Positions 3-31,984 of a DNA stretch of 32,828 nucleotides are shown here, one piece after another. Under the pieces are notes generated by a model that did not search any database, was not told the DNA's origin, and worked only from the letters and a program-made list of their open reading frames with translations. Location: IMG/VR virus record IMGVR_UViG_3300047552_000444, positions 1 to 32,828 of that record. One strand, written 5' to 3'. The stretch is from a virus. Every line of letters begins with the position of its first letter. Position 1 is the stretch's first letter. A program made the translations under genes and the position numbers.

Positions 3-47
3 GGTACTAACGGGAACAGTACTTACTCAGGGAAGGAGGAAAGATGA
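3..47 (+). CDS. C-terminal end of an upstream gene (partial)
   Basis: An open frame enters from the left edge and reads GTNGNSTYSGKEER before a TGA stop. That stop overlaps the kdsB start codon in an ATGA arrangement, the coupling seen between many genes elsewhere in this window. The Shine-Dalgarno sequence of kdsB lies inside this frame. Only 14 residues are visible, so no function can be given. If real, it means kdsB is the second or later gene of a plus-strand operon that begins outside the window. Confidence 0.4.
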   Translation, partial: GTNGNSTYSGKEER

Positions 48-760
48 TAGCAGGAATCATACCAGCACGAATGGGCAGCAAGAGGTTCCCGGGCAAGCCC
101 TTGACTCCAATACTTGGTAAACCGATGATTCAGTGGGTGTGGGAGAGGGCCGCGTGGTGCAGTAGCCTGGATTATCTGTACATAACCACACCTGATCCTG
201 AGATCATAGAGGTAGCCAACGACTTCGGGGCGAGAACACTATTGACTGGCAAATGCACCAGTGGCACTGAGAGGGTGCTGGATGCAGCTTGTAAACTGTG
301 TTTGAGCCCAGACGACTACGTCATCAACATACAGGGGGATGAGCCCCTGGTAACTCCAGACATGCTTGACAGGTTGATCGCAGGAGTCATGAGGCCATGT
401 TCTGTTGCCACACTTTTTTACCGCTCAGACGCATGGGCCAACTTCCACAACCACAATGTGGTAAAACTGGTGAATGATTCCTACTACCAGGTGCTGTACT
501 TCTCCAGGGAAGGGATACCATCACTGCCGATAGGAAGGGTGGGTAGGTACAGCAAGCACATCGGCCTCTACGCCTACAAGGTGCAGGAGCTGAAGAGGTG
601 GACGTGGATGCCTGCAGGCAGACTGGAGAAGTTGGAGAACCTAGAGCAACTCCGATGGCTGGAGCACGGACTGAGTGTGGTGGCGGTGGAGTCTGAGACA
701 GATACCATATCAGTGGATGTTCCGGAGGATGTAACTAAGGTGGAAAGGCTCCTGATTTAA
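44..760 (+). CDS. kdsB: 3-deoxy-manno-octulosonate cytidylyltransferase (CMP-Kdo synthetase)
   Basis: The enzyme activates Kdo with CTP to give CMP-Kdo, the sugar donor for the inner core of lipopolysaccharide and some capsules; it acts in the cytoplasm. The 238 residues are close to the usual length of about 245-250. Visible family motifs, in order, are the CTP-binding loop IPARMGSKRFPGKPL (6-20), SGTERV (73-78), NIQGDEP with its metal-binding Asp (95-101), YFSR (152-155), KHIGLYAY (171-178) and LEQLRWLEHG (200-209). The start is set by AAGGAGG a few bases upstream. It converges on the late operon and shares a hairpin with it. It is intact, with no missing motif, so it should be active. A CMP-activated relative of Kdo is a possible alternative substrate. 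Confidence 0.93.
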   Translation: MIAGIIPARMGSKRFPGKPLTPILGKPMIQWVWERAAWCSSLDYLYITTPDPEIIEVANDFGARTLLTGKCTSGTERVLDAACKLCLSPDDYVINIQGDEPLVTPDMLDRLIAGVMRPCSVATLFYRSDAWANFHNHNVVKLVNDSYYQVLYFSREGIPSLPIGRVGRYSKHIGLYAYKVQELKRWTWMPAGRLEKLENLEQLRWLEHGLSVVAVESETDTISVDVPEDVTKVERLLI

Positions 761-1907: not shown

Positions 1908-1918
1908 TCTCGTTCCTC

Positions 1919-3283: not shown

Positions 3284-3293
3284 GTTGTCACTC

Positions 3294-5132: not shown

Positions 5133-5144
5133 TTCTCAGTCTCC

Positions 5145-5618
5145 TTATTTCACGAACCAGAGGCGAATAACCCCTGTAGCTCCGCTGTTGGTAGCCCCAG
5201 AAATCCCTAAAGTCCAGGTATCGCCCTTAGCCACACCTGGGTAACGCGAGCCAGTAGTGTTGGCAGGGAGCACTCCTTCTGTCACCGTGGCTGACCTGCT
5301 TGCCCCGCGACCACCGAGAACGTCGTAGGAGAATCCCGTATTGGCCCTCAAGATGGTCACCCCGTAGGAAGCCGGGGCAGGAGAACCAGGGTCGGTCTCC
5401 ATCTCGTACAAGTACATGTCCTGTAAGCTAGCTATGTAAGAAGCAGTTATAGCTCTGGAAGTCCAGGTGCCGTCAGTGTGGGCAACCCAGGTAATGGTTA
5501 CAACACACTGAGTCTTGCCATCAGAGCACTGCATCTTCTGAACATCAGTCCCTACTGCCCAGACTGATCCAGAAAGGGATAATATTACCAGAAGTGTAAT
5601 TGCTAGAACTTTCTTCAT
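5145..5618 (-). CDS. Small exported beta-rich protein
   Basis: A 157-residue product of unknown function. The start at 5618 is chosen over an ATG seven codons upstream because AAAGGAG sits ten bases before it and it begins a clean signal peptide (MKKVLAITLLVILSLSGSVWA). The mature part opens with two cysteines (CSDGKTQC, a likely disulfide) and continues as short beta strands ending in GVIRLWFVK, as in small trimeric fibre domains. It lies between other leader-bearing genes, so it may be a partner or accessory to the neighbouring fibre-like proteins. Confidence 0.7.
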   Translation of the reverse strand: MKKVLAITLLVILSLSGSVWAVGTDVQKMQCSDGKTQCVVTITWVAHTDGTWTSRAITASYIASLQDMYLYEMETDPGSPAPASYGVTILRANTGFSYDVLGGRGASRSATVTEGVLPANTTGSRYPGVAKGDTWTLGISGATNSGATGVIRLWFVK

Positions 5619-5652
5619 GTCTTTGGCACTCCTTTCCATCTAGGTAAGTGTT

Positions 5653-5850
5653 TTATACTTGATCCTTACATTTAATAATATTGCTAGGTCGTGTCTCTTT
5701 CTTGACTCGCAATATCTTGAAATCTGTGCCAAACACCTCCGATGCCAATCTTCTGGCACATTTTGCAGAGATTGCTTGTATGCAAAGATCACTCCTCTCA
5801 GGCATTGTTTCCCCTGTCGTTTCGATATAATATATACGGTATACGCTCAT
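5653..5850 (-). CDS. Small hypothetical protein
   Basis: A 65-residue product without a signal peptide, the only gene between two leader-bearing neighbours that lacks one. It starts directly after the preceding stop (TAAATG), with a weak GGAAG-like ribosome site. The pattern of an N-terminal strand, a helix rich in Ala/Lys/Arg (AISAKCARRLASEVFG) and a further strand (FKILRVKKE) suggests a small alpha/beta fold. It is basic at the end. No family is recognised. Confidence 0.55.
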   Translation of the reverse strand: MSVYRIYYIETTGETMPERSDLCIQAISAKCARRLASEVFGTDFKILRVKKETRPSNIIKCKDQV

Positions 5851-8439: not shown

Positions 8440-8449
8440 TCAGAATCTC

Positions 8450-10717
8450 CTATTCGATGTAGATGGTGGCATTTATCCTGACGTTTGTTGGATTGGTAGT
8501 GGCCCATGTCGGGCACACCCACTTCAGCGTGAAGTAATCCCCACGGGCAACTGCTATTGACAGTCCGGTTTTTTCGATCAAGACATCCTCGGTAGCGTGA
8601 TCTACGGCAGCACTCAACTCGGTGTCAGTGGAACTATTCAGCCGGAAATAAAGCGATGATGTAGCCGCATCTCCCAAGTTCGCATTGTTTACAAAGGTAT
8701 AGATAGTCTTTACAGCTCCACCCTTCGGTATGTATATCCTGCATCTCGACCCGTCAGTTAGAGCTATACTTCCAAAGCATCCACCCAGATAATAAGTAGC
8801 TCCATCGGCAGGGTCGGATTCCTTCATGCCAACTTGAAGAGTGTAGCCAGTATTGATCCGCTTCCAATCACTCTCGTTGTCATCAAACGCCATCCAAAAG
8901 TCGGTGTTGGCAGCAGTGGCATCTCCAGACTCATGAGTAAACATCACCTCACCACGCTGAACTGAACGGTAGGTAGGACTCCCCGAAGTCACGTGTTCGT
9001 TGTTCGTTATACCTAACTGACCAAAGGCACGGATAATCGGATCAGTATCGCCGAAAGTACCGCTCTCCTCCACATACCACCCGAGAGGCATGCCAGCAAA
9101 TCCGTGTGAGCCACCCCAGTAGTTTGTGTGACCGCTATTCCAGATTACGTCTCCTGACAACCAAATTCCACCACCATTTGTTGCGGTAGGAGGTCCGGTA
9201 GAACTGAACGCCTCTCTACGGTATGGGTACGACACTGACTGTGCCGTTGTTACAGTGCCCTTAGAGAGTACGACATTAGCAATATAGACAGTCTGACCAG
9301 CCCCAACCTTGATTTCAACATAAGGACGCTCCCCGGCAATCCGGGCATGACCACTGCTCTCTGCGCCAGCGAATAACTCATAACTGGTGTCAGAACGAGT
9401 TCCGTGAAGGACATTAGTCGAGTAGGTGCTGTCCTCACCCAAAGCAACATACCCAATGAGTGACTGCTCAAACTGTCCCTTCATCAACACGACTGCGGAT
9501 AGATGTCCTGGAGCATCCATATAGGACATATCTGCTTTGAACCGAACAGAGCAATTCTCTGTGGCCCCGCCGACAGCCTTCAGAACCATCCCATAGGGGC
9601 TTCCTGATTCCAGATCCTCAACCATCGAGATAGAGCTACCCTCCCGGTCCTCATCCCCGCATATCTCCTCCCACCCAGCACTTACATTCTGTGGAAGCCA
9701 TTGCTGAGAATCTCCAACATCAATCAGTTCCAGCTTCTGAAACCACGGATTACCGTAGATGTCCAGAGATGGGAAGAGGTCCACCCCGGTAGTTCCACGA
9801 TTGAGCGTGGAGAACCGCTGATCATAATCCAAAATAAGATCGCCATCCCCGACTTCGGGCAGGCTTGAGTAGATATAGGTGTCGAAAAAGATCACCGGAC
9901 CTGTATTAAGGACTTCATACTGCTCGATATACGAGCCACCATCTACCACAAAGGGCCATTGAGTATTGCCATTTCTGACAGCGTAGTGGGAGTCGCTGAT
10001 GTCACAACCAGTACATATATTGGCTTGTGAGCTGACCTCCGTATCCGTTCCGATTACACCAACTCGGATCGAAGCGTTATCTGTGTCGGTTAAGCCGCCA
10101 GTTCCGTCGGTTAATGCACCCTGGAACCGACACTTGCTGAAAGTATTGGTATTGATGCCATTGTCGCTGGTAGTTCCTCGGCCACCTGGGAGCAATATCA
10201 GTCCGTGTGCAGCTACTCGGTCGAAACTGTTCCAGAATGTCCCAAAACCAGCCCCGGAAGTGTCCGAACTATCCGTTATGAGTAGATAGTGATCAGCAGA
10301 TTTTGTCCTTCCAGCAAAAAAACCACCACCCTCTTCAAACACAATGTTTTCAACTTTGCATCGCCAGCACCCGTTGATTTCCCCGTATCCGTCAACATAC
10401 AAGTTCTTGACGATCACATCTTTCGATTTGTTGATAATAAGGTTGCCAGTCAACTTGGCGCCCTGGCCGTCAAGGGTGAGGGGATAGGTAGACTCAGACA
10501 GGGTAAGATTACCCACATAGGTTTGGCCTGGCTGAAGTTGGACTACACCTCCCTGAGTAAAGGCATCCCAAGCAGTCTGAATCGCAGTGGAGGTTAGAGT
10601 ATCGACGCTACAGACAAACGGAGTCTTTACCCCTGCCGGGAACTGGCTGACCCTCAGCCCATGAGCCGTGCCAAACAACACAAGAACCAGCACTATTGCT
10701 ATACTTAGTTTTTTCAT
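8450..10717 (-). CDS. Spike-like beta-helix protein with signal peptide, paralogue of the next gene
   Basis: A 755-residue product. The ATG at 10717, two bases after the preceding stop, is chosen because it begins a signal peptide (MKKLSIAIVLVLVLFGTAHG); the longer frame extends back into the upstream gene. The beta-helix starts almost at once (about residue 48), so there is no tail-attachment domain. Residues about 48-590 match residues about 290-830 of the neighbouring 862-residue protein, including KDVIVKNLYVDGYGEINGCW (99-118). The last 130 residues form a separate beta domain (YYLGGCFGS, SRCRIYIPKGG, then to NATIYIE), like fibre tips. It may be an exported polysaccharide-binding or depolymerising protein; activity is not proven by any visible motif. 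Confidence 0.75.
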   Translation of the reverse strand: MKKLSIAIVLVLVLFGTAHGLRVSQFPAGVKTPFVCSVDTLTSTAIQTAWDAFTQGGVVQLQPGQTYVGNLTLSESTYPLTLDGQGAKLTGNLIINKSKDVIVKNLYVDGYGEINGCWRCKVENIVFEEGGGFFAGRTKSADHYLLITDSSDTSGAGFGTFWNSFDRVAAHGLILLPGGRGTTSDNGINTNTFSKCRFQGALTDGTGGLTDTDNASIRVGVIGTDTEVSSQANICTGCDISDSHYAVRNGNTQWPFVVDGGSYIEQYEVLNTGPVIFFDTYIYSSLPEVGDGDLILDYDQRFSTLNRGTTGVDLFPSLDIYGNPWFQKLELIDVGDSQQWLPQNVSAGWEEICGDEDREGSSISMVEDLESGSPYGMVLKAVGGATENCSVRFKADMSYMDAPGHLSAVVLMKGQFEQSLIGYVALGEDSTYSTNVLHGTRSDTSYELFAGAESSGHARIAGERPYVEIKVGAGQTVYIANVVLSKGTVTTAQSVSYPYRREAFSSTGPPTATNGGGIWLSGDVIWNSGHTNYWGGSHGFAGMPLGWYVEESGTFGDTDPIIRAFGQLGITNNEHVTSGSPTYRSVQRGEVMFTHESGDATAANTDFWMAFDDNESDWKRINTGYTLQVGMKESDPADGATYYLGGCFGSIALTDGSRCRIYIPKGGAVKTIYTFVNNANLGDAATSSLYFRLNSSTDTELSAAVDHATEDVLIEKTGLSIAVARGDYFTLKWVCPTWATTNPTNVRINATIYIE

Positions 10718-10718
10718 T

Positions 10719-11054
10719 TTAGAACAACACCCTGAAAAGTTCATTCCACACCCCACCCCAACTCACCAGACCTAGAACATCCCCGGCATTCAGCGGAAGG
10801 TCCTCAGCACCAGCCAACTTGATCTTGGCCACATCATGCTTGATAGTTATAATTGCCGACGTTGACTTCATCATCAATATCCGTATCAGACCGTTACTCT
10901 CACTGGTGATATCAGTGAAGTCCCTGGCAGCTAGAGAGTATATCTCAACGGTCTCAATCTGTGCCGTACATGTGTTGGCCCAGGTATCCGTAGTCAACGT
11001 TTTCTCTGAATAAGATGGACCATCATAAGCCAGTTTCTTCCATGTCGCCGCCAT
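10719..11054 (-). CDS. Small tail-fibre-associated protein
   Basis: A 111-residue product. The N-terminus MAATWKKLAYDG is nearly the same as that of the 127-residue protein encoded at 11293-11676 (MAVTWKKLAYE), while the rest differs. That suggests a shared docking segment with exchangeable beta-rich bodies. The C-terminal half (IRILMMKSTSAIITIKHD, then AGDVLGLVSWGGVWNEL) reads as a beta sandwich. There is no signal peptide. It lies between the tail tip genes and the spike-like genes, so a virion fibre or adaptor role is likely. Confidence 0.65.
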   Translation of the reverse strand: MAATWKKLAYDGPSYSEKTLTTDTWANTCTAQIETVEIYSLAARDFTDITSESNGLIRILMMKSTSAIITIKHDVAKIKLAGAEDLPLNAGDVLGLVSWGGVWNELFRVLF

Positions 11055-21441: not shown

Positions 21442-21779
21442 TATACCCAAGCCCTCCTGAGAAACTCGGCGCCTGCCAGATCCGGAATCTTGTCAAACCG
21501 CTTGATCGGCATTGCTGCTTCCATACTGACAGGTGAACCGGAGGCGCTGGTAAGATCATCGGCATCCCCTAGATAGATATAGTCACCAACCTTTACATCC
21601 TGCCCCAAGAACACCTTAGCATTGCAGTTAACCCGCTCACCAGAGGAATCAATAAACATCTCAGACGACTGCTCCCACCGGACATCTATCTCCACCGGAT
21701 CCTCCCAGGTATAGCCCCCATAGCCATCTGGGGCTAACCGTTCCCAATACACCGCTACCTGATTAAGCTCAAAATCCAT
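21441..21779 (-). CDS. Head closure (stopper) protein
   Basis: A 112-residue product of the SPP1 gp16/head-tail joining type. It has YWERLAPDGYGGYTWEDPVE near the N-terminus, a central strand-rich barrel (DVRWEQSSEMF, AKVFLGQDVKVGDYIYLGD) and a closing part (IKRFDKIPDLAGAEFLRRAWV). These are typical of small beta-barrel connectors that close the head after packaging. It overlaps both neighbours by one base (TGATG before, TAATG after). Confidence 0.78.
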   Translation of the reverse strand: MDFELNQVAVYWERLAPDGYGGYTWEDPVEIDVRWEQSSEMFIDSSGERVNCNAKVFLGQDVKVGDYIYLGDADDLTSASGSPVSMEAAMPIKRFDKIPDLAGAEFLRRAWV

Positions 21780-22180
21780 CAGTCAAAGTCCTCGTGATCA
21801 GCCCCGAATCCTCGTAGGACGGCTTTCTGCCTACCTAGGGAGTTCAAACTACCCATGTAGTCCAGAATAAGGGCTTGTTGACCATAGGGAGAGGTCTCCA
21901 GGGAAAAAGACACATTGCTCCCACGGCTGACCTGATAGGTCTCACTGGCCTCACCGATGGACTTACTGACCAAGGCTGACTTGCTCGGGTCGCGTACAGA
22001 GGTGAAATGAGCCGATAGCCATCTCTCGATTTCCTTTAGCTCCGCAACAGAGTACCCCGCAGGCACACACTTCGCAGTAACCAATAGATTTGCCGCTGTT
22101 ATCATAGGTGCTAATTGGACTGAGGTCAGCGTAGTACTGATGATCTCTTTCACTTCGTCCCCGGTAACCCTATTAGCCAT
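21779..22180 (-). CDS. Head-tail adaptor (connector) protein
   Basis: A 133-residue, mostly helical product at the gp6/gp15-like adaptor position. Helices such as VTGDEVKEIISTTL, MITAANLLVTAK and LKEIERWLSAHFTSV, then SKSIGEASETYQVSRG, fit small adaptor proteins that bind the portal. It is the first connector gene after the glycan island. The ribosome site is weak (GGA about 12 bases before the ATG). The family call rests on fold-like pattern and order, not on a decisive motif. Confidence 0.7.
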   Translation of the reverse strand: MANRVTGDEVKEIISTTLTSVQLAPMITAANLLVTAKCVPAGYSVAELKEIERWLSAHFTSVRDPSKSALVSKSIGEASETYQVSRGSNVSFSLETSPYGQQALILDYMGSLNSLGRQKAVLRGFGADHEDFD

Positions 22181-22185
22181 ATCTG

Positions 22186-22863
22186 TTATCCATTCCAGAG
22201 TTGAGGTGATACAAACTCACAGACCTTCTCTTCATCCCACCCAAGGCCAAGCTTGGTCACTAAGGTGCAAGCCCTAGAGTAATCCTGAACGATGTCATCC
22301 GACCATACCTCACAGGAGGCATTGACCGATTTGAAGATCTCGCTAAAACACCATTTGTGGTAGTCAATCCACTCCTGCCACGACTCCCGAGACTTCCGCT
22401 TGCTCATAAACCGGGTCTTCATACAGGAGTCAATAATCTTCTCATCATCTCGGCGCACTATGACCCACCGAGCTTTGGGGAAGGCTTTATGCCAGACCGG
22501 CCAAATCAAACATGCCTTAGCTCCCTTGAATGCCCAAGTAGAGGTGCCGTCATAGCCTTCGGAGTGAATTACCTTCAGGACCCTCTGCCTCCAATGGGGC
22601 TCACACAAGGTCATCGTAATGTCGGGCAAGGGTATCTGCCCCATCGGATCACACCCTATGGACTTGAGATAGGGCTTAGTAAGCTTGTCCCGGATGGCGA
22701 CATTTTCAAACTGCCCCTTCTTATTCCACTGGGTAGGCCCGGTCATGTTGCCCATCCAAGCCCCTGAGCTATGCATAATGCCAGCAATAAGGCTGGTCCC
22801 GGAGCGAGCGCACCCAGTAATGATAATAGGCTCAAGCGAAAAGTCCTTAAAGACATCATGCAT
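22186..22863 (-). CDS. PAPS-dependent sulfotransferase
   Basis: A 225-residue product. Residues 12-30 (PIIITGCARSGTSLIAGIM) are the 5'-phosphosulfate-binding loop of sulfotransferases, and ARWVIVRRDDEKIIDSCMKT (131-150) fits the 3'-phosphate-binding segment. The family moves sulfate from PAPS to a hydroxyl, often on a glycan. ATG at 22863 is chosen over the upstream GTG because AGGTGG stands five bases before it. It is the last gene of the glycan island, next to the cupin gene and directly before the connector genes. A glycan acceptor is inferred from the neighbours; a protein tyrosine or nucleotide acceptor is not excluded. Confidence 0.83.
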   Translation of the reverse strand: MHDVFKDFSLEPIIITGCARSGTSLIAGIMHSSGAWMGNMTGPTQWNKKGQFENVAIRDKLTKPYLKSIGCDPMGQIPLPDITMTLCEPHWRQRVLKVIHSEGYDGTSTWAFKGAKACLIWPVWHKAFPKARWVIVRRDDEKIIDSCMKTRFMSKRKSRESWQEWIDYHKWCFSEIFKSVNASCEVWSDDIVQDYSRACTLVTKLGLGWDEEKVCEFVSPQLWNG

Positions 22864-23395
22864 AGCCGCCACCTATCTTGTTCTCAGAACAGGTTGGGTC
22901 ATATTCCTTGTGTAAAGTCTCATATAGGGTCTGATTGCTGCACTTTGGGACAAACTTATTCTCAGCACACTTGCGGCACCTGGACCAGTGGGCTCCTATG
23001 CCTGGCTGAGTCATGTCCTCCCAGTCATGATCGCATACAGTACTCTCTATCACCGTCACCGCCAAGCTCCCACCTTTAATCCGGCGTTCGATGTCCTCGC
23101 ATTCATACTTGACATACATGATTTCCTGGACAAGAGCCTGGCTGTCAGGGGTCTGAAACTCATGCCATTGAAGTGGATTGGTGGTGAATACCTGCCCTTG
23201 GTTCACCTTTGTCTCTCCATCCTCGGTCTTAATGGTCAATGATCCCTCAATAACATAGAACTGGTTCCACTTGCTGCGATGACGGTGCCAGGAGCACCTT
23301 TGTCCGGCATTAAGCTGAAGTACTGACACCTCGCACAAGTCATTCTTGAACAGTTCTGTCTTTACTCCCCACGATTTGTGAAGTACCCTCATCAT
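22856..23395 (-). CDS. Cupin-domain protein with a Cys-rich C-terminal part
   Basis: A 179-residue product. Residues about 10-95 form a cupin: CSWHRHRSKWNQFYVIEG (34-51) carries the metal-binding His pair, and PLQWHEF (74-80) the later His. This resembles the isomerase-type cupins of sugar nucleotide pathways. A second part (118-152) has CDHDW, CRKC and KCS, which could bind zinc. ATG at 23395 is chosen because AAGGAG is eight bases before it and it overlaps the previous stop (ATGA). A sugar epimerase/isomerase or binding role fits the island, but the substrate is unknown. Confidence 0.72.
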   Translation of the reverse strand: MMRVLHKSWGVKTELFKNDLCEVSVLQLNAGQRCSWHRHRSKWNQFYVIEGSLTIKTEDGETKVNQGQVFTTNPLQWHEFQTPDSQALVQEIMYVKYECEDIERRIKGGSLAVTVIESTVCDHDWEDMTQPGIGAHWSRCRKCAENKFVPKCSNQTLYETLHKEYDPTCSENKIGGGYA

Positions 23396-24051
23396 CTCCA
23401 GTTCTCCTTGATCCATTGTTCATTCACTTGGTGAGGTCGTGGCTTACCGTGAAACCGGACTATGCTGGCGCCAGGCTGATAGCCGTCAACCTTATAACTC
23501 AGGACTGTGTTAGGATACAGATCTTGCCAATAACGGATATTCAGCCACCCGAGGTCTTTCAATATGTGATAGAACTTTCGCTCACTTCCCCTAGTCAGTT
23601 CCTCAACTGCTTTCTTATTCCTCCTGAGGTACTCAGCTATCTCGGTAGTCCATTGCTGATTAGGGTCAAACGCCACCACACTGCCCCCTGGGTTCTGGTT
23701 CAGGTAGGCTCCCCTGCATGTGAGGAGGTCTGTAGAACGACACTTCAGTATAAAGTCCAGGCTTCCTGTCACAATCAGATCCAAGTCCAGCGCAACAACC
23801 CATTCATAGCCCTTTAAACCAGCCTCCTCCGAGAACATGAACATCTTCTTCAGATTCCATCGGTACTGGGAGAACTCGCTTGGTATGGCTCTGGAGTTGA
23901 TCAGGTTGCCAAAATTCACCCAATCGAATGGGGTCAACGTATTCCTCAAAACAGAAGAATGCAGCTTGCGCACATACTCTGCGCCCAGTCTGGGGTTGTC
24001 CTCAGGCCACTCACCCCACAAAAAGCTGATTACCGCCACCTTTTTAGACAC
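23392..24051 (-). CDS. GT-A glycosyltransferase-like protein
   Basis: A 219-residue product. The N-terminus KVAVISFLWGEWP, followed by helix EYVRKLHSSVLRN, and the motif EWVVALDLDLIVTGSLDFIL (83-102) fit GT8-like GT-A enzymes, where DLD is the DxD metal and nucleotide-sugar site. Near the end, SIVRFHGKPRPHQ gives the His commonly found in the C-terminal part of such enzymes. It is related in style to two other enzymes in the island (24488-25258 and 27246-27902). Donor and acceptor are not known. Confidence 0.8.
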   Translation of the reverse strand: MSKKVAVISFLWGEWPEDNPRLGAEYVRKLHSSVLRNTLTPFDWVNFGNLINSRAIPSEFSQYRWNLKKMFMFSEEAGLKGYEWVVALDLDLIVTGSLDFILKCRSTDLLTCRGAYLNQNPGGSVVAFDPNQQWTTEIAEYLRRNKKAVEELTRGSERKFYHILKDLGWLNIRYWQDLYPNTVLSYKVDGYQPGASIVRFHGKPRPHQVNEQWIKENWR

Positions 24052-24054
24052 TAG

Positions 24055-24162
24055 CTACCTCTTGCCCTTACGGTCTCTGTTTTTAGCCTGGCGCCTCTGT
24101 TTGGCCTCTTCCTGGAGAGCTTTTGCCTTTGCTTTGGACTTCTTGCCCTTGTTTGCTGCCAT
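24055..24162 (-). CDS. Very small basic protein (35 residues)
   Basis: A 35-residue frame, MAANKGKKSKAKAKALQEE continuing to DRKGKR, starts directly after the preceding stop (TGAATGG) with AAAGGAG upstream and ends before the next gene. About half of its residues are Lys or Arg. Such proteins may bind nucleic acid or membranes, or be a helical tail; nothing specific can be said. Placement and ribosome site argue that it is translated. Confidence 0.6.
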   Translation of the reverse strand: MAANKGKKSKAKAKALQEEAKQRRQAKNRDRKGKR

Positions 24163-24495
24163 TCAGGTATCTCCTTTTGGTTCTGGATCTGGAAATAGAA
24201 CTTCCGACACAAACTCCTCAGCAGGTGGGTCAGGTTCCCTCTCGTTAACCAACTTGAAATATTCCCTCAGCCGGTAGTGCATCCTCTTACCCATCTTAAA
24301 GGACTTCTCCAGGAGGTCATTCAGCTCAGCAAGCTTTTCCTCCGGGATATAGCCATTTAGGTCAACATTCACAACCATCCAAATCATTCGCTGAATGCCA
24401 CAAATAGTCTTCTGGTACCCTGGGTCTTCTTCCGACCTGGCCAGTTCCCGCAGGGTAGCCTCTGGGTTAAGGTTCCATTTGTAAGGTTCAGCCAT
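24163..24495 (-). CDS. Hypothetical helical protein in the glycan island
   Basis: A 110-residue product, MAEPYKWNLNPEATLRELAR at the start. The ATG at 24495 overlaps the preceding stop by eight bases; the longer frame lies over the glycosyltransferase gene. The sequence is mostly helical with charged Glu/Lys repeats (IPEEKLAELNDLLEKSFKMG) and ends in an acidic Pro-rich tail. No family is recognised. It could be a small partner of the neighbouring transferases. Confidence 0.6.
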   Translation of the reverse strand: MAEPYKWNLNPEATLRELARSEEDPGYQKTICGIQRMIWMVVNVDLNGYIPEEKLAELNDLLEKSFKMGKRMHYRLREYFKLVNEREPDPPAEEFVSEVLFPDPEPKGDT

Positions 24496-25258
24496 TCCAA
24501 TGATCCCGTATCCAGGGGTAATCTCGCTGTAAAACAGTCTGACTTGGATCATACCTGCCATTAAAGAACACCAACCGGGCATCTCCAGGCAGTGACCCAT
24601 CTATCCTCTTAGGGGTAATCTGTTTGCCATTATGGGTAGGCAGTAGTAAAAACTGCCTCCTTATCCGGGTGTTGAAATTATAGATCCCGTCCTCAACCTC
24701 CCAGGTGGCCTCATGACGATCAAACAACTGGGCGCTGATGTGGGCTTGATCCGTGCCAATGAACTTCAACCTCCTCATCAGTTCAACCGACATGTGAGGG
24801 TCGGTGGAGAACTTATCCCACACTTCCTGCCTCGCCCCGGCCCGCATGCCCCAGAGACTTCCACAGAACGGGGTGCGGCGGCGATGCTTGTCCTTCCACA
24901 TACGGAAATCTTCCTTGAATCCCAGTATTGGGTCAAGATCCCCCACAACCAACACATCAAGGTCAATGGAAATAAACCTGGGGCCGAATAACGCAAGAGC
25001 CGTAGCCTGATCAAAGGACTTCAACCTCCTGTAACATCCTCCCCAGTCCTTGAAATCGCCAAAATGACGGTCTATATTCACAACCCCTACCGAACTATGG
25101 AGTCCTTTCCAATCGTCGGTTACACACACGAATTCATGGCTTAAAGCAGTGTGCCTGCTTATGGCTGCTTGGAGTTTGTTGACGTGCTCGGCGGTAAACA
25201 GGAGCTTCTTCTTTGGATGAAGTCCGTTGTTCCATTTCCAGCACACTACTGTAATCAT
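24488..25258 (-). CDS. GT-A glycosyltransferase-like protein
   Basis: A 256-residue product. The N-terminus ITVVCWKWN, then HEFVCVTDDW (41-50) and FISIDLDVLVVGDLDPIL (95-112), place it with GT8-like GT-A enzymes; DLD at 99-101 is the DxD-like site. In the second half, FCGSLWGMRAG and TDQAHISAQLF are acceptor-side motifs known from related enzymes (GxxxxR and a D in a TDQ context). The start overlaps the methyltransferase stop (ATGA). Substrate unknown. Confidence 0.82.
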   Translation of the reverse strand: MITVVCWKWNNGLHPKKKLLFTAEHVNKLQAAISRHTALSHEFVCVTDDWKGLHSSVGVVNIDRHFGDFKDWGGCYRRLKSFDQATALALFGPRFISIDLDVLVVGDLDPILGFKEDFRMWKDKHRRRTPFCGSLWGMRAGARQEVWDKFSTDPHMSVELMRRLKFIGTDQAHISAQLFDRHEATWEVEDGIYNFNTRIRRQFLLLPTHNGKQITPKRIDGSLPGDARLVFFNGRYDPSQTVLQRDYPWIRDHWNG

Positions 25259-25842
25259 CTCGCCCGCCCATACCAGATAGTGGTGTCTGGGACAATTTCC
25301 ACTTTGCCTATAATTCGATCAACGGCCTCAATTACCTCTGGATACTCATCAGAATAATCATGTCCGCACAAAATCTTAACAGAACTGGTAGTAGACCAAG
25401 CTAACAGGTCGCTGTCTATCTGTTTAGTACCACCATCTATGAATACCATACCAGGGGCTAGAACCGGACCTAATACCGACACCACAGCAGACGGGAGTTC
25501 TATCAAATTCAGATTGGGAAAATACCCGACTCTCTGAAAGAACTGCCGACGCCTATCCAGGTCCTTCTTATTGTAGTCAAACTCGTCCTTGGTGCCTTTA
25601 ACAAAGTGAGGCCAGGGATCAACGCAGTACACCTTTCCGTCATCCCGGAATGAATTGAAGTTACCACTCAGCAGGGCGTGGGAAGATCTCCCGAAGGCCG
25701 AGCCAATCTCTATGATCACTTTATGCTCCCCCGCCCTCTGGTAAAGCCATTCCAGCTCAGGACCGGACATCCACCCAGGGATAGGAATATAGGGAAAGCG
25801 ATATGGTCCGTAGTAGTTCTTGATCACAACACACGCTCCCAT
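25255..25842 (-). CDS. Class I SAM-dependent methyltransferase
   Basis: A 195-residue product. Residues 43-53 (IIEIGSAFGRS) are motif I for S-adenosylmethionine, VYCVDPW (71-77) is the following acidic strand, and GMVFIDGGTKQIDSDLLAW (131-149) is the Methyltransf_24-like strand-helix. The start at 25842 is chosen over an upstream codon at 26034 because that longer frame lies within the GT2 gene. It has a relative in the same island (26587-27249), so two methylation steps are likely. A sugar O-methyl role is inferred. Confidence 0.82.
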   Translation of the reverse strand: MGACVVIKNYYGPYRFPYIPIPGWMSGPELEWLYQRAGEHKVIIEIGSAFGRSSHALLSGNFNSFRDDGKVYCVDPWPHFVKGTKDEFDYNKKDLDRRRQFFQRVGYFPNLNLIELPSAVVSVLGPVLAPGMVFIDGGTKQIDSDLLAWSTTSSVKILCGHDYSDEYPEVIEAVDRIIGKVEIVPDTTIWYGRAR

Positions 25843-26597
25843 GGAAACCGGAGGATCCCTCCGCCAGGCTTTGCCTCCTTCAGTTCGCCCTTGCGCCGAA
25901 AGGCCTGACGGTACACTTCCCGGTACTTTTCGCGAAACTCTGATGGCTGGCTGGCGTCTGGGATGACCTCTCTGGTCCATCTGATTAGATTGACCTCTGG
26001 GATGTGGGTGCGCTGGGCAACCCGGTCCATCCACCTCATAAAAGGACCATCACCACCATACATCCCGCAATAGTCTTCGTCATAGCCCCCGGTCTTCCAG
26101 AACTTCGTACGGGTAACCATGAAGGTATTAGGATGGGGCTTAGACTTTCCATCATTGCCCAGCATCAGCTCGTACCGGAATGAATGGTCATTGTCCTTTA
26201 TGGCAGTCAACCGCTGTAGGGTGTAGAACCTATCCTGGTCCTTCTCCATCTCCAACAAATAAGCCAGGGAAGGAGTAGGCAGGGTGTGGTCGATATCTGA
26301 CATAAACAACCACCCGTTCGGGGCCATCTTTGCACCAAGGTTCCTAGCACCATGCTGATTCCAGGGGATATCCTTCAGGATTCGGTACACCTGGAGTTGG
26401 AAGTCAACAGGGCCTGATTTATCAATCACATCCAATACCGGGATCTGGCTGCAATCATCCACCAGTATGACCAACACCTTCTCTTTCATCCAATCCGGCA
26501 TCATATCCCACCCGGAAAGCTGTATCTGTAGCATCCCTGAGCAGTTGTAGCACGGATATATCAAGGTGAAGAGGTCCGAGAATTTGCTACTCACCAT
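25824..26597 (-). CDS. Family 2 (GT-A) glycosyltransferase
   Basis: A 257-residue product with the classical GT2 pattern: FTLIYPCYNCSGML at the N-terminus, VLVILVDDCSQIP (41-53), WNQHGARNLGAKM (79-91), the DxD motif in LFMSDIDHTLP (97-107), and GGYDEDYCGMYGGDGPFM (170-187), as in enzymes with an ED-type acceptor loop. It transfers a sugar from a nucleotide donor in the cytoplasm. There is no membrane anchor. It lies between the two methyltransferase genes. Confidence 0.9.
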   Translation of the reverse strand: MVSSKFSDLFTLIYPCYNCSGMLQIQLSGWDMMPDWMKEKVLVILVDDCSQIPVLDVIDKSGPVDFQLQVYRILKDIPWNQHGARNLGAKMAPNGWLFMSDIDHTLPTPSLAYLLEMEKDQDRFYTLQRLTAIKDNDHSFRYELMLGNDGKSKPHPNTFMVTRTKFWKTGGYDEDYCGMYGGDGPFMRWMDRVAQRTHIPEVNLIRWTREVIPDASQPSEFREKYREVYRQAFRRKGELKEAKPGGGILRFPWERVL

Positions 26598-27249
26598 TCA
26601 CCACCAATCCTGGAGGAATCCAATCCTTAGTTTTAGATCGAGTCCACCATATCCATCCACCACCAGCAGGCCTGATATCCCCAGGCTTGCCAAGATATAC
26701 CGTAGGGCTTTGGTTACCTATCCAGTAACCTTGCGAGTTTTTCCCTGCCTGGCATTCTGGGCCGAAGAACTCTTCCACTGCCTTTCTGACTCCGCCGTGA
26801 ATAAGGTCATCCCCACCCATCCAACCCCCATACTTCAGCTTGGGCCAGAAGTTCCTGATATCTGCTATAGCTCCTGGGTAACGATGGTCACCGTCTACCC
26901 AGACAAAACTTAAGGATTCATCAGCAAACTCCTTGTGCAAGATGCCGCTGTCTCCTCGCATAGGGATTATAGTTACTTTTCCCTCGCCCTCCCTATTTAC
27001 TGGAAGAGTAGTTTTAATGAAGTCTTCAACTGGGACATAGATCTTGTTGTTAGAATCCCATATGTCGATGGCGTAGATGATTATTTGCTTGCCACTGTTG
27101 ACAGCCTCTACCCCAAGACAGGAGGTGGACTTGCCTAGGTGGCACCCGATTTCCACAAACAAGGCCGGGTCCGGAGCCATTGCCACTGCTCTTTGGTACA
27201 TTTCAGGCCAGTTGAACCAGCCTTTAATCTGTTGATAATAGTGTTTCAT
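26587..27249 (-). CDS. Class I SAM-dependent methyltransferase
   Basis: A 220-residue product. FVEIGCHLGKSTSCLGVEAV (31-50) is motif I, IIIYAIDIWD (56-65) the second strand, and FVWVDGDHRYPGAIADI (115-131) with GGDDLIHGG (145-153) is typical of Methyltransf_24 enzymes. Its ATG overlaps the preceding stop (ATGA). The C-terminus carries an aromatic extension (WIWWTRSKTKDWIPP). Such enzymes in sugar clusters often methylate sugar hydroxyls. Confidence 0.85.
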   Translation of the reverse strand: MKHYYQQIKGWFNWPEMYQRAVAMAPDPALFVEIGCHLGKSTSCLGVEAVNSGKQIIIYAIDIWDSNNKIYVPVEDFIKTTLPVNREGEGKVTIIPMRGDSGILHKEFADESLSFVWVDGDHRYPGAIADIRNFWPKLKYGGWMGGDDLIHGGVRKAVEEFFGPECQAGKNSQGYWIGNQSPTVYLGKPGDIRPAGGGWIWWTRSKTKDWIPPGLVVNGE

Positions 27250-27902
27250 CTCCAGTAATCCAATATCCAGGTGTGCCCGTCAAGTATTAGTTGCTTATTC
27301 TTACCACCCTGAATTAGCAGTGATACTATCTCCCCATTTATCGGGTGCTGTGTTCCGGCTTTAGGCAAATATTTGCTTATCCACTTACTCGGGAAAAGGT
27401 CTACTCGCATCGGCAGAGAAGACAACCATTGCTGATCTCCAGCAAAGTGTATATACGGAATCTTCCCTAACTTACTTCTGATCAGTTTAATCTGTTCGGA
27501 GCTACCACTCCAGGACATCACAGACGAGTTGAAGTCATGCCCTCGCATGGGAACTCCGCTAGACGGGGCAGTACAGAAATCAGTAGGAAACTCAATCAGT
27601 GGCACAATACTTCTCATGATTACCACATCAAGGTCGAAGTATAGAACCCTCGGAGCATCAAGGTTGAACAAGTTGACCTTATACCAATGGTTCTCGACAT
27701 TCTTGGGCGGGATGATAGTCGGTGGTATAGCTCGGACCCAATCGTAAGACTTCAGTTCATCAGTATGCGGGGTGACACACACAAACTCAAATGGTCGGTG
27801 TAGCAGTCCTACTCGCCTATCCACCATCCGATACAGCTTCCACACCCACTCCACCGTATCGAACACTTCCGACTTCACCCACACGCAAGCAACTGTTAGC
27901 AT
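27246..27902 (-). CDS. GT-A glycosyltransferase-like protein
   Basis: A 218-residue product. FEFVCVTPHTDEL (38-50), WYKVNLFNLD and PRVLYFDLDVVIMRSI (84-99) mark a GT8-like GT-A fold, with the DLD motif at 90-92. FNSSVMSWSG and FAGDQQWLSSL are later motifs (acceptor side and a conserved DQ). It starts seven bases inside the GT-D gene. It shares its general plan with the enzymes encoded at 23392-24051 and 24488-25258, so they may have arisen by duplication; this needs an alignment. Confidence 0.83.
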   Translation of the reverse strand: MLTVACVWVKSEVFDTVEWVWKLYRMVDRRVGLLHRPFEFVCVTPHTDELKSYDWVRAIPPTIIPPKNVENHWYKVNLFNLDAPRVLYFDLDVVIMRSIVPLIEFPTDFCTAPSSGVPMRGHDFNSSVMSWSGSSEQIKLIRSKLGKIPYIHFAGDQQWLSSLPMRVDLFPSKWISKYLPKAGTQHPINGEIVSLLIQGGKNKQLILDGHTWILDYWR

Positions 27903-28819
27903 CGGTCGGTCACCCCTTTGACATAGCCAGGATCAGACGGTCGATGATTCCAAACCTGTCTATCCGCCATGTCCTCTATCCCCCAGCAACGGCGATAAAA
28001 AAGCCCAAGATGCCCCAAGTCCACTCCCTGTCTACCTACAGAGGCAAGGTCGTAAGCGAGGACCGTAGCAGTTGGCCCCACACACAACAAGAAAAGGTCG
28101 GTCTTAGGTCTCAACAGGCAGTCTACCATTATCTTATCATAGTTCTTCCAGGCGTGGGTAGACGGAACAGCGATCTGATAAATGGACCGGGCTGACTTCA
28201 TCATATCAATGTTTGCCCGCTTTTCATGCCCCCTAACCAGTGTCACGTCCCTGTCCCGCCAGATTTCTGATATCAGTACCCAGTAGCTGGGCCAGGACAG
28301 GTAACCACACAGGTCCCCTCTGGTAATGTAGGAGCTACCATATAGGTGATTGCGGTCACTGATCTTGTAGAACTTTCTCCGCATGCTCTTGATGTAGTCC
28401 TCTGGGACCTCGGTAAACTGCCTACCATTCCATACATTAGGGATGGCAACGATATGGTTGGGCAAACGGCTATGAAACACCTCAGTCAGCCTCTCTTGGA
28501 GGGACTCAAAGAATATCTGACTGACGTTGCGCTTACCCGCCATGTGCTTCAGTTCCCCATCCCCATACCTGGAGATTGATTTGCCCTGGATGATCTGCCT
28601 GATCGTGTCCCACTCATTCATCACCTTGATATGAAGCTTCTTGATAGGAATCCGGGGCCGCTCTTCTTCCTCCAGAGCAGCGTCTTCTGCCAGGTGAGAA
28701 AATAGCCTGCTGTAAAGAGCCCGCCTCTTCTCAAGACTATCCTTGGCCTCCTGTAGTCTAGCCATTCTCCTATCATGTGCTGCCTTCTTGACCATAGCCT
28801 TGGTAAGAGCCACACTCAC
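27896..28819 (-). CDS. GT-D fold glycosyltransferase (DUF1792-like)
   Basis: A 307-residue product. SISRYGDGELKHM (81-93) is the hallmark motif of the GT-D/DUF1792 family, where the DGE acids bind the donor and metal. LFLLCVGPTATVLAYDLASV near the end and the following GVDLGHL are also typical. Residues 1-55 are a highly charged helical extension that could be a coiled coil or partner-binding segment. The start is a GTG overlapping the preceding stop (GTGA), with GAAGGG upstream; an inner GTG or ATG is possible. Confidence 0.85.
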   Translation of the reverse strand: MSVALTKAMVKKAAHDRRMARLQEAKDSLEKRRALYSRLFSHLAEDAALEEEERPRIPIKKLHIKVMNEWDTIRQIIQGKSISRYGDGELKHMAGKRNVSQIFFESLQERLTEVFHSRLPNHIVAIPNVWNGRQFTEVPEDYIKSMRRKFYKISDRNHLYGSSYITRGDLCGYLSWPSYWVLISEIWRDRDVTLVRGHEKRANIDMMKSARSIYQIAVPSTHAWKNYDKIMVDCLLRPKTDLFLLCVGPTATVLAYDLASVGRQGVDLGHLGLFYRRCWGIEDMADRQVWNHRPSDPGYVKGVTDRC

Positions 28820-29532
28820 CAGCCCTTCTTGATAAGTTCCTCGATGGGAACCACCGTAAATATGTTGAGGGCTGAGCCTGGGGTAGCATTGGCGATCTGA
28901 AGTCCGGTCACTTTCATCGCATCACTCATTGGCTTCAGGAATGGCATCATACTATTCTGGTAGATCTTGTCGCGCTCAACCTTCTGGTGATTCTCATGCC
29001 AGTTGTGATGTCCATCCACCATGCGCATATCAAAGCCAAGTAGTACAATCCTAGCAGCACCAAGAAGATAAGCGGCATTGATAGCAGTACCACCACAGCC
29101 CCTATTCCAGCAAAGAGTGTCCTGCTCCACGCTAAGACCAAAGCGAGCCTCATCCCTACGCAGTATCCTGAGCCACGGCCACTTGACATTCCGCTCCTCC
29201 AATAGCTGAGGTACGCAACAAATGACTTGCTCCCTATTCTTCCACTTAGTCAATTCGATTTCATTCCAATGAAACCACCGCTTGTCGGCGAACACACACC
29301 AGTCAACCCAATCCCCAAGCTTGAAGGCATCGTTACAGCCTACCACCGGCCTATTCCTAACCAGGTCCAGGTTGGTATGTTTGAGAGAAGGCCCACCACC
29401 CAGGACAAAGACAGTCTGGCCATCATACGGTCGTGGCAGGGAATCATACTCCTCTCGGATCTCAGGTATGAACCAGTCGAGCCACTTGCCATACTTACCG
29501 TCCGATGATCCGATCTTGATAGTTCCACCCAT
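28816..29532 (-). CDS. GT42/DUF115-like protein (norphogenetic-type), copy 2
   Basis: A 238-residue product. After a short N-terminus it has TVFVLGGGPSLKHTNLDL (about 42-59), then VVGCNDAFKLGDWVDW and CVFADKRWF, a central WNRGCGGTAINAAYLLGAAR and LLGFDMRMVDGHHNWH. This pattern is shared by phage proteins similar to MAF_flag10/DUF115 proteins and family 42 sialyltransferases, which use CMP-sugars. ATG at 29532 overlaps the preceding stop (TGATG). It is a tandem paralogue of the next gene upstream. Transferase activity is inferred, not proven. Confidence 0.72.
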   Translation of the reverse strand: MGGTIKIGSSDGKYGKWLDWFIPEIREEYDSLPRPYDGQTVFVLGGGPSLKHTNLDLVRNRPVVGCNDAFKLGDWVDWCVFADKRWFHWNEIELTKWKNREQVICCVPQLLEERNVKWPWLRILRRDEARFGLSVEQDTLCWNRGCGGTAINAAYLLGAARIVLLGFDMRMVDGHHNWHENHQKVERDKIYQNSMMPFLKPMSDAMKVTGLQIANATPGSALNIFTVVPIEELIKKGW

Positions 29533-30242
29533 CACAGCAGCTCCGATATCGGCTTGAAAGGGAATGCCTTTAGTTTACTGCTCTGGTTTATATTCCAGAC
29601 AGTAACCCCCAGCTTGGCAAAGTCATCAGCCACACTGGTAAAGGCATTCAGCATCATCTCTTGGTAAATGTTCAACGATGGCTCAGGCATCCATCGGTCA
29701 TTGCTGTCCTTGGTTCGCTTGATGTAGTAAGGGTCGTAAGCCCGATGCCAGTTGTGGGATTTACCGTTGGCAGTCTGATCAAACCCTAACAGCACCATGT
29801 CCTTGGAACCGAGCAGGTAAGCAACGTTCATGGCGCAAGCCCCAGTGGACCTGTTCCACCTCACCATATAAGGATCATCGCTGATGCCCCAGGCCTTGCG
29901 CCCATTTAACCGACGCACATGAAGCATCCAGTCCTCGTCCGGTCTTGGGTCTCTACCGGAGGCATTGATTAGCTTACCTCCTTCATCAACATATTTGTGT
30001 AAATCTGACCGAAAGTTGCGCAGGAAAGCCTTATCTCCGAATACAGCCCACTGGACCATACCTCGGGGCAGTAGGAATGCAGCGGCATTACATCCCAGCA
30101 CACATTGACCTTCCAGCATTCTCCAATCAAAGTTACTCAAAGACGATCCCCCACCCACGATGAAGACCCGCTTACCAGGCCACACTTTTGGGATTGCCGA
30201 CCAAACCACTTCACCAAAGCCCTTATTCCGATGCAGCATCAT
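29532..30242 (-). CDS. GT42/DUF115-like protein (norphogenetic-type), copy 1
   Basis: A 236-residue product with the same motif order as copy 2: RVFIVGGGSSLSNFDW (25-40), VLGCNAAAFLLPRG, WAVFGDKAFL, WNRSTGACAMNVAYLLGSKD and VLLGFDQTANGKSHNWH. The start is taken at the ATG at 30242, 20 bases inside the preceding gene; an in-frame TTG at 30284 is possible but poorly supported. Two tandem copies suggest two different acceptors or donors. The neighbouring presence of a CMP-Kdo synthetase in the window makes a CMP-sugar donor worth testing. Confidence 0.72.
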   Translation of the reverse strand: MMLHRNKGFGEVVWSAIPKVWPGKRVFIVGGGSSLSNFDWRMLEGQCVLGCNAAAFLLPRGMVQWAVFGDKAFLRNFRSDLHKYVDEGGKLINASGRDPRPDEDWMLHVRRLNGRKAWGISDDPYMVRWNRSTGACAMNVAYLLGSKDMVLLGFDQTANGKSHNWHRAYDPYYIKRTKDSNDRWMPEPSLNIYQEMMLNAFTSVADDFAKLGVTVWNINQSSKLKAFPFKPISELL

Positions 30243-30660
30243 ACCCAGTCTCAGCCCAGGCCTTCGCCCTATCCTCCCGAACAAAACCCCGACTCACCTT
30301 GGTACCAACCGGCAAAACAACTCCGTCAGGAGCTGTATAATTCAGCCCTGGAGTCTCAATTACCACTTTCCAGTTCTTACCAGTCACCTGTATAGCCTTG
30401 AGTTTGGCTTGGGGAAGACACTCACCTACCCCCATGTAGTCCTTCTTTGGTTTGGGTACGGGAGCCAATTCTGAGACTGGTTCAATGAGCTCCCAGCCAT
30501 GCCAAGCATTCGGGTAGCCGGGCAGCTGCTCCTTGCTCTCAACTTGAATGGTGTCGCCAGGATAAAAGGTTTTCATTGAAGCCTGACGAGCCTTATGCCC
30601 ACCTTTGCGACTCCCCATGAACAACTTTCCGCTATCTTTCCTTCGTCTGTACGTCAGCAT
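30223..30660 (-). CDS. Hypothetical protein after the major capsid gene
   Basis: A 145-residue product, basic at the N-terminus (MLTYRRRKDSGKLFMGSRKG). A beta-structured middle follows (FYPGDTIQVESKEQLPGYPN, then WHGWELIEPV), and a second beta part (AIQVTGKNWKVVIETPGLNY, VLPVGTKVSRGFVRED). AGAGG precedes the ATG. It is separated from the capsid gene by a hairpin and leads into the glycan island. It may be a small head-associated protein; no family recognised. Confidence 0.6.
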   Translation of the reverse strand: MLTYRRRKDSGKLFMGSRKGGHKARQASMKTFYPGDTIQVESKEQLPGYPNAWHGWELIEPVSELAPVPKPKKDYMGVGECLPQAKLKAIQVTGKNWKVVIETPGLNYTAPDGVVLPVGTKVSRGFVREDRAKAWAETGYDAASE

Positions 30661-30769: not shown

Positions 30770-31984
30770 TTACGAAGTTGTCGCCACCACGATGCCACAG
30801 TTAGTATCGGCATCAGCCCGAAACTGAGGGACCATGATCGCCATGATTTTGTATTCAAACTGCATGCCACCATGGCTGGTCCACTCCACCATCATCGGAG
30901 CAAAACCCACGACCATTCTTACGGTCTCAGCCTTCAGCTCGGTGAAGATCACCACATCGTCATACAGCTTGTCGGCAACCTTGATCCCCTCAATACCGGA
31001 AATCTCCATGATGCGTTGCCGGGTGGACTTGTCCGAGTTGGTCTTAAAATCGTCGTCAAGCACCGTCTCATAGGCCGTAGGGATGTAGATCATGTACGGA
31101 CCATAGTGCTTGTCGTCGATCAGCTTCTGCTTCATGTTGAGAACGTCTTTGAGAACTTCCTCACCAGTCACGCCGCTGGAACCCCAGTCGGCCATCGTGG
31201 TGTAGGTGTTGGCATTAGCTGCATTGCGGTAGCCGTAAATAGTACCACCACCATAGGCGAAGGTACCGACCGTGGCGCCACCACCAGGACCGTTGAACAG
31301 CATGTTCTCGATATACTCGGTTACATTACGAGTCCCCATCTCAGCACGCAATGTGTCAAGCGGGGTACCACGTTTGCGGGATGCCGTCAGGTGCCGTATC
31401 GTCAGATAGAAATCGTCGTGAACGATTGGCAACGGCAGGTAGTTAATGGTGTACTCGGGGATGTCAGCCCGGCCACGAGCAATAGCATCCATGCTCATCT
31501 GTGCGGCCTCAACATCCGTTACATGCTCATACTCAAGCACCGTAGTACCCATAGCATTAGGCACATTCAGCACCAGGCCCCGAGCAAGAAGGTCCCCTAC
31601 GCCCACGAGTCTTTCCTGGGCGACCCGGAGGACCACATCGTCATACTGTTTCCACTCGTCCTTCAGGAGGGTGGCAGCGTTGACCTTGAAGTTCTTACCA
31701 TTGACCGTCACGAAGGCATCCAGTCCGCCCATGAACTGGTCAACATTCATGCCGGCATCATTGGCCATCAAGGCGATGTCCATGAGATTGGCCCTTACTG
31801 CCGATGCCTGCTTGGTCATGTTAATCCAGGGCCGAAGAGCCTGGGGATTCATCCCCAAGTTCATAAAGGCCGACATCGCCCCTGCACCCATATTAGCCAT
31901 AAGGTGCTCGGTACCAGGAGCCCACGCCCCAGTCTGGGCATTAATCGTGAAAGGGCTTGCTACCAACGATGGTTTATTTTCCAT
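30770..31984 (-). CDS. Major capsid protein, encapsulin-like HK97 fold
   Basis: A 404-residue product that should form the icosahedral shell. YLPLPIVHDDFYLTIRHL (182-199) and PLDTLRAEMGTRNVTEYIEN (208-227) followed by MLFNG, then the helix VLKDVLNMKQKLIDDKHYGP, the strand-loop YMIYIPTAYETVLDDDF and a closing FAPMMVEWTSHGGMQFEYKI, follow the encapsulin/linocin-type HK97-fold pattern. There is no obvious long scaffolding domain at the N-terminus. A full-length Shine-Dalgarno sequence, AGGAGGTGA, stands seven bases before the ATG, as expected for a very abundant protein. It follows the decoration gene. Confidence 0.88.
   Translation of the reverse strand: MENKPSLVASPFTINAQTGAWAPGTEHLMANMGAGAMSAFMNLGMNPQALRPWINMTKQASAVRANLMDIALMANDAGMNVDQFMGGLDAFVTVNGKNFKVNAATLLKDEWKQYDDVVLRVAQERLVGVGDLLARGLVLNVPNAMGTTVLEYEHVTDVEAAQMSMDAIARGRADIPEYTINYLPLPIVHDDFYLTIRHLTASRKRGTPLDTLRAEMGTRNVTEYIENMLFNGPGGGATVGTFAYGGGTIYGYRNAANANTYTTMADWGSSGVTGEEVLKDVLNMKQKLIDDKHYGPYMIYIPTAYETVLDDDFKTNSDKSTRQRIMEISGIEGIKVADKLYDDVVIFTELKAETVRMVVGFAPMMVEWTSHGGMQFEYKIMAIMVPQFRADADTNCGIVVATTS

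Follow-up and report, generated by a model that had tools for sequence, protein, structure and literature searches.

The virus record IMGVR_UViG_3300047552_000444 is a 32,828-nt contig (hereafter the window, meaning the whole stretch analysed) that is incomplete and holds only structural genes. Between its major capsid gene and its head-tail adaptor gene lie 13 open reading frames (ORFs), all on the minus strand, closely packed and mostly overlapping, which we refer to as the slot (Table 1). The slot is flanked by a capsid protein of the DUF6260/Linocin-type HK97 group (phrog_771) on one side and by adaptor, closure, neck and tail-terminator genes on the other; ORF layout and flanking domains confirm an original prediction, made from the sequence alone, of about 13 coupled genes in this position. 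Family searches also agree with the enzyme types then proposed, namely two GT42/DUF115-like proteins, a GT-D enzyme, three DLD-motif enzymes, a GT2 enzyme, two methyltransferases, a cupin and a sulfotransferase. Both DUF115-like proteins fall in phrog_4603, annotated as 'alpha-2,3-sialyltransferase'. The first gene after the capsid gene encodes a small head-module protein that is no enzyme and is conserved in relatives.

We gathered capsid and sulfotransferase relatives from viral contigs and genome contigs, and found the same slot filled across dozens of uncultured phages. Slot counts are based on 71 contigs that have a complete slot and differ in capsid protein; slot length in this set ranges from 0.27 to 10.3 kb. 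A GT42-like gene stands right after the small post-capsid gene in 57 of these slots and is missing from the other 14, and in 118 of 135 cases no more than 60 nt separate the sulfotransferase gene from the adaptor gene, the exceptions being mostly contig ends, second copies and inserted genes. The smallest filled slots have only the GT42-like and sulfotransferase genes after the small gene (L015, L017, L063, L071, L076 and L141). More than 50 distinct contigs show this layout, which excludes chance or an assembly artefact as its source. Outgroup phages (L003, L020-L027, L092 and L095) have an empty slot, with the capsid gene, the small gene and the adaptor gene in succession and nothing else recognised between them. 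In the capsid tree nearly all filled slots fall into a single clade (support 99), with nested losses in L075 and L099/L102. L149 branches outside this clade and is counted among the 57; in this contig (6142-10642) the adaptor gene precedes the GT42-like gene and the sulfotransferase gene precedes the head-closure gene, the whole cassette being displaced by one gene. Two contigs with filled slots, L098 (CP070742.1) and L105 (DSEQ01000021.1), belong to Zixiibacteriota assemblies, a hint to the host for part of the clade.

The slot is constant at its two ends, in the GT42-like first enzyme and the terminal sulfotransferase, and methylation belongs to the variable part. A Pfam tally of 74 slot proteins (73 cluster representatives of otherwise unlabelled ORFs and one large labelled ORF) found 11 methyltransferases, seven GT2 and five radical-SAM proteins, together with epimerases, proteins of the GDP-mannose-dehydratase and UDP-glucose-dehydrogenase types, hexapeptide transferases and a CmcI-type O-methyltransferase. 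Pairs of phages share on average ~10-20% of their cargo below 70% capsid identity, with ~60% and then ~90% in the two identity classes above that. Close relatives can nonetheless differ, as in L153 and L158, whose capsid proteins are 85.5% identical and whose slots measure 9.6 and 2.5 kb respectively, and in L005, the nearest relative of the window (capsid protein 83% identical), which keeps the glycosyltransferase order and is missing both methyltransferases. L153 also carries an HNH/NUMOD-like gene (1879-2412) between the capsid gene and the small post-capsid protein.

Table 1. Slot genes, slot boundaries and the putative donor-supply gene of the window (SAM, S-adenosylmethionine; PAPS, 3'-phosphoadenosine 5'-phosphosulfate; Kdo, 3-deoxy-D-manno-oct-2-ulosonic acid; CMP, cytidine monophosphate)
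Feature	Coordinates	Strand	Evidence
Major capsid protein, left slot boundary	30770..31984	-	DUF6260 7e-20, Linocin_M18 8e-9, phrog_771 4.8e-24
Small post-capsid protein, 145 aa; N-terminal domain as in empty-slot phages; C-terminal domain of GT42-slot type, divergent here	30223..30660	-	
GT42/DUF115-like glycosyltransferase a	29532..30284	-	phrog_4603 4.5e-13; included in family profile A3
GT42/DUF115-like glycosyltransferase b, core enzyme of the slot, MptE-like/DUF115	28816..29535	-	phrog_4603 1.5e-28; profile vs CstII 3.6e-6
GT-D fold glycosyltransferase	27896..28819	-	PF08759 4.7e-40
GT-A-like glycosyltransferase, DLD motif	27246..27902	-	phrog_1962 6.8e-6
SAM methyltransferase 1 (Methyltransf_24); not in nearest relative L005	26587..27249	-	PF13578 6.1e-14
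GT2 glycosyltransferase	25824..26597	-	PF00535 5.2e-7
SAM methyltransferase 2 (Methyltransf_24); start inferred at 25842; not in L005	25255..25842	-	PF13578 4.1e-5
GT-A-like glycosyltransferase, DLD motif	24488..25258	-	phrog_1962 1.1e-16
Small ORF, start inferred from sequence	24163..24495	-	Longer ORF 24163-24600 without family match
GT-A-like glycosyltransferase, DLD motif	23392..24051	-	phrog_1962 4.9e-14
Cupin, possible sugar-modifying enzyme	22856..23416	-	Cupin_2 5.9e-10, weak MannoseP_isomer
PAPS-type sulfotransferase, constant last slot gene	22186..22872	-	PF13469 (Sulfotransfer_3) 1.1e-7, above cut-off
Head-tail adaptor, right slot boundary	21779..22180	-	phrog_302 3.1e-5, DUF4054 weak, synteny
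KdsB-type CMP-Kdo synthetase, probable donor-supply gene, outside the originally reported range	44..760	+	NF003952 246 bits; PF02348 8.5e-39

The inferred starts of methyltransferase 2 and of the small ORF near 24495 are downstream of the longest-ORF starts. Elsewhere in the window, seven consecutive minus-strand genes lie past the tail module (1057-10756, ORFs at 8450, 5851, 5145, 3294, 1919, 1380 and 1057), two of which encode large paralogous proteins at the place of tail fibres or tailspikes. The N-termini of these seven are hydrophobic and signal-peptide-like (for example MKKLSIAIVLVLVLFGTAHG), which is unusual in tail proteins, given their cytoplasmic assembly.

Boundary enzymes and donor-supply genes

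The last gene of the slot matches Sulfotransfer_3 at 32.7 bits, over the curated cut-off of 27 bits, and contains two invariant motifs (P-loop RSGTS and RR...S..C). The 5'-phosphosulfate loop (R23-S24-G25-T26) and the 3'-phosphate residues (R141 and S149) are invariant in 35 sequences. A search of PDB sequences with the sulfotransferase profile gave no match. Structure searches had been suggested for each enzyme, and as run for the sulfotransferase this shows a PAPS-sulfotransferase fold: the predicted model (mean predicted local distance difference test, pLDDT, 91) has a tyrosylprotein sulfotransferase as its best PDB fold match (1.4e-5), with a Foldseek probability of 1.00 and template modelling scores of 0.45-0.62 against TPST2, TPST1 and Stf1. 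Other sulfotransferase classes (Stf1, Stf9 and Cpz8) match with scores comparable to the tyrosylprotein type, so the substrate cannot be read from the fold. The function of phage sulfotransferases has been called unclear in a study of an OM43 phage (PMC10580990).

At the opposite boundary, a profile of 13 slot-type GT42-like proteins matches CstII in PDB (1ro8 and relatives) at 3.6e-6, and the CMP-binding motifs GxGPS, Asn, S/T-G and LxG[FI]D align with those of CstII. An invariant His is found at H180 of glycosyltransferase b, and the aligned stretch stops before CstII His188.

Genes for making the presumed donors accompany the slot. The KdsB of the window scores 246 bits against NF003952 (cut-off 193) and 148.7 against the stricter equivalog TIGR00466, slightly under its cut-off of 155.2. 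KdsB-type genes are present in five of 49 clade contigs and, by protein search, in seven of 50,697 phage records (Fisher p ~5e-13, to be taken as indicative since the search methods differ). They are placed mostly in the terminase-portal interval (L045, L046, L057, L059, L069/L070, L081 and L087), immediately before the portal gene in L047 and L048, and in L147 behind a KdsA-type gene upstream of the capsid gene. PAPS, the sulfotransferase donor, is made by adenosine 5'-phosphosulfate (APS) kinase, which exceeds its family cut-off in four of the 49 clade contigs and lies immediately next to the sulfotransferase gene in two (L189 and L190). No NeuB-type sialic acid synthesis gene was identified in the 49 clade contigs, making phage-made sialic acid unlikely, and KdsB points to Kdo rather than N-acetylneuraminic acid (Neu5Ac) as the probable donor sugar. 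Separate GT42-like, KdsB and APS-kinase query matches also occur together in LR756500.1, a 462-kb uncultured phage record.

Acceptor candidates and the target of the putative glycan

The N-terminal part of the small post-capsid protein is common to empty-slot phages. Its C-terminal part of ~42 residues (GxxYDVVNxxTGxxINDxxLxxxEA) is present in 51 of the 57 slots with a GT42-like gene and in none of the 14 others, and the two sulfotransferase-only phages have merely weak remnants of it. Searches of Pfam, PHROGs and PDB sequences gave no match for the protein, and the fold search none that was convincing; the C-terminal part appears to be a new small domain, found almost exclusively with the GT42-like gene, although relatedness explains part of this association. 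Speculatively, the post-capsid protein would be the first choice as acceptor or docking factor. A Ser/Thr tail at the capsid C-terminus was considered as a glycosylation site and rejected, as none is present. Genes for GtrA, a lipid-carrier sugar-phosphate transferase (WbaP-type) or a flippase were not found over cut-off in 40 contigs and only 13 of 392 slot proteins have transmembrane-like segments, disfavouring a classical envelope pathway.

Our preferred reading, with a probability of roughly 0.6, is that a modular cassette assembles an ulosonate-linked glycan on the phage head, one that is variable and often sulfated. The slot would be a late-expressed virion-glycosylation cassette in which the GT42/DUF115-like enzyme moves an acidic ulosonic sugar onto new head protein in the cytoplasm; this sugar is probably Kdo, supplied as CMP-Kdo. 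The exchangeable middle genes would then extend and decorate it with more sugars, methyl groups and epimerised or oxidised sugars, and the sulfotransferase encoded next to the adaptor gene would add sulfate from PAPS. The product may be a negatively charged surface coat that differs among close phages, with the small post-capsid protein, more speculatively, as its acceptor or docking factor. The original prediction of a methylated, sulfated glycan made at assembly time fits well with the recurrence of the slot in the head operon, the PAPS-sulfotransferase fold and the travelling donor genes, but methylation is variable, as both methyltransferases are missing from L005. Where that prediction allowed either capsid and tail proteins or host surface polymers as targets, the evidence favours the virion, with the acceptor still at candidate level. 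A more specific version, which we put forward tentatively and hold to be somewhat doubtful, is a large group of uncultured tailed phages with Kdo-linked sulfated glycoprotein capsids, a two-gene core (GT42-like enzyme and sulfotransferase), an exchangeable middle comparable to a capsid serotype locus, and the new post-capsid domain as acceptor or docking site.

Several observations weigh against a head glycan. The capsid protein has no Ser/Thr-rich C-terminal tail in phages with filled or empty slots, which leaves other types of site, and in none of four virion proteins (capsid, decoration, adaptor and closure) does a Ser, Thr, Tyr or Asn column convincingly track the GT42-like gene. The C-terminal domain of the window's own post-capsid protein is too divergent to score, and a test of independent pairs for the domain and the GT42-like gene had three usable pairs, of which about two agree and none disagrees, and is not significant. 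The KdsB gene of the window is on the opposite strand at the contig edge, and the KdsB rates in the clade and in phage records come from different search methods.

The main rival is modification of the host surface, in which lipopolysaccharide (LPS) or another envelope polymer would be decorated late in infection, preventing re-adsorption of progeny to debris or excluding other phages, with Kdo and GT42 chemistry directed at the inner-leaflet lipooligosaccharide core. Kdo occurs naturally in LPS, and alteration of host glycans is common among phages; that the best-matching solved enzymes are GT42 lipooligosaccharide sialyltransferases both supports this explanation and counts against a head target. 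We nevertheless regard it as unlikely, because GtrA, WbaP-type and flippase genes over cut-off are absent and membrane segments scarce, the genes are within the head operon and not among lysogeny or moron genes, the domain change that goes with them affects a head-module protein, and late expression, if correctly inferred, would allow little time for envelope change.

Three further explanations were weighed. Human tyrosylprotein sulfotransferases are the top fold matches of the slot sulfotransferase, and L089 and L090 retain it in the absence of a GT42-like gene, as would be expected if it sulfated protein tyrosine directly while the glycosyltransferases built a separate decoration. This seems improbable given the comparable fold scores of Stf1, Stf9 and Cpz8, and the lack of a convincing cassette-tracking tyrosine in virion proteins (tracked against the GT42-like gene and not the sulfotransferase alone). 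The glycosyltransferase set might instead act on DNA or a small molecule, as in hypermodified phage DNA; this would accommodate the methyltransferase and radical-SAM cargo and has precedent in DNA-modifying phage glycosyltransferases (Pyle et al., 2024, as cited in PMC12619734), but location in the head operon and boundary genes fitting CMP-sugar and PAPS chemistry make it very improbable. Equally remote is the notion that the post-capsid space simply tolerates horizontally acquired genes that share no function: the strongly different cargo of relatives (shared fraction ~0.1-0.2 below 70% capsid identity) and the HNH/NUMOD-type gene in some slots are in keeping with it, whereas the recognisable cargo is mostly glycan chemistry, both boundary genes are fixed in position and donor genes travel along.

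The slot is thus real, widespread and modular, and represents a new variety of phage-coded particle glycosylation if its target is confirmed. Phage heads would then carry variable acidic, sulfated sugars from a modular slot, resembling bacterial capsule loci but on a virus particle, with a bearing on encounters between particles and antibodies, surface sticking and persistence. A head glycan could also account for some of the phage sulfotransferase and kdsB genes of unclear role, and provide a function for long-unassigned morphogenesis genes such as D3 orf7 and P1 pmgO.

Comparison with known glycosylation systems

No published description of the slot was found, within partial coverage of the literature, and the searched literature contained no report of a sulfated phage particle. 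No sulfotransferase of the slot family was detected in any of the 50,697 phage records. The chlorovirus PBCV-1 builds its capsid glycan with virus-coded soluble glycosyltransferases and methyltransferases, resembling the proposed cassette, although it is a virus of eukaryotic algae with unrelated enzymes, and we know of no sulfotransferase in its capsid glycosylation. Phage O-antigen conversion (gtrABC) likewise uses phage-coded glycosyltransferases but requires the membrane proteins GtrA and GtrB, and a GtrA-type flippase was found in 0 of 40 contigs. The characterised GT42 enzymes CstI and CstII of Campylobacter act on lipooligosaccharide with CMP-Neu5Ac; they share a profile match and motifs with the GT42-like enzymes of the slot but probably differ in donor, KdsB suggesting Kdo for the latter.

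Capsid and tail-tube proteins of the mycobacteriophages Che8, Corndog and Myrna are glycosylated by the phages' own enzymes (Freeman et al., 2023, as cited in PMC12363180 and PMC12619734). The glycosyltransferases of the window are likewise phage-coded, and lie inside the structural operon. Unlike the slot, the mycobacteriophage systems have no GT42-like enzyme, CMP-Kdo synthetase or sulfotransferase reported in the available parts of these sources, which place the glycans at protein C-termini, whereas the capsid protein of slot phages lacks a Ser/Thr-rich tail.

The closest parallels are in cultured phages, where a protein search with the U7 protein identified GT42-like genes in D3, PMG1, U7, PAJU2 and P1, among others. 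In D3 (capsid, orf6.5, the GT42-like orf7, adaptor) and U7 the gene is exactly between the capsid and adaptor genes, as in the slot, and in PAJU2 (gp10) it is in the head module; all three also carry a methyltransferase, in sets smaller than that of the slot. P1 has a smaller set as well, with the GT42-like pmgO in a late morphogenetic operon together with the annotated glycosyltransferase pmgQ. The view that phage glycosyltransferases usually sit outside the head module, on which the original prediction drew, is therefore not general. Knockdown has shown pmgO, pmgP and pmgQ to be non-essential in P1 (PMC10695390), as expected if they serve decoration. The presence of GT42-like genes in the morphogenesis operons of D3 and P1 makes head glycosylation testable in cultured phages.

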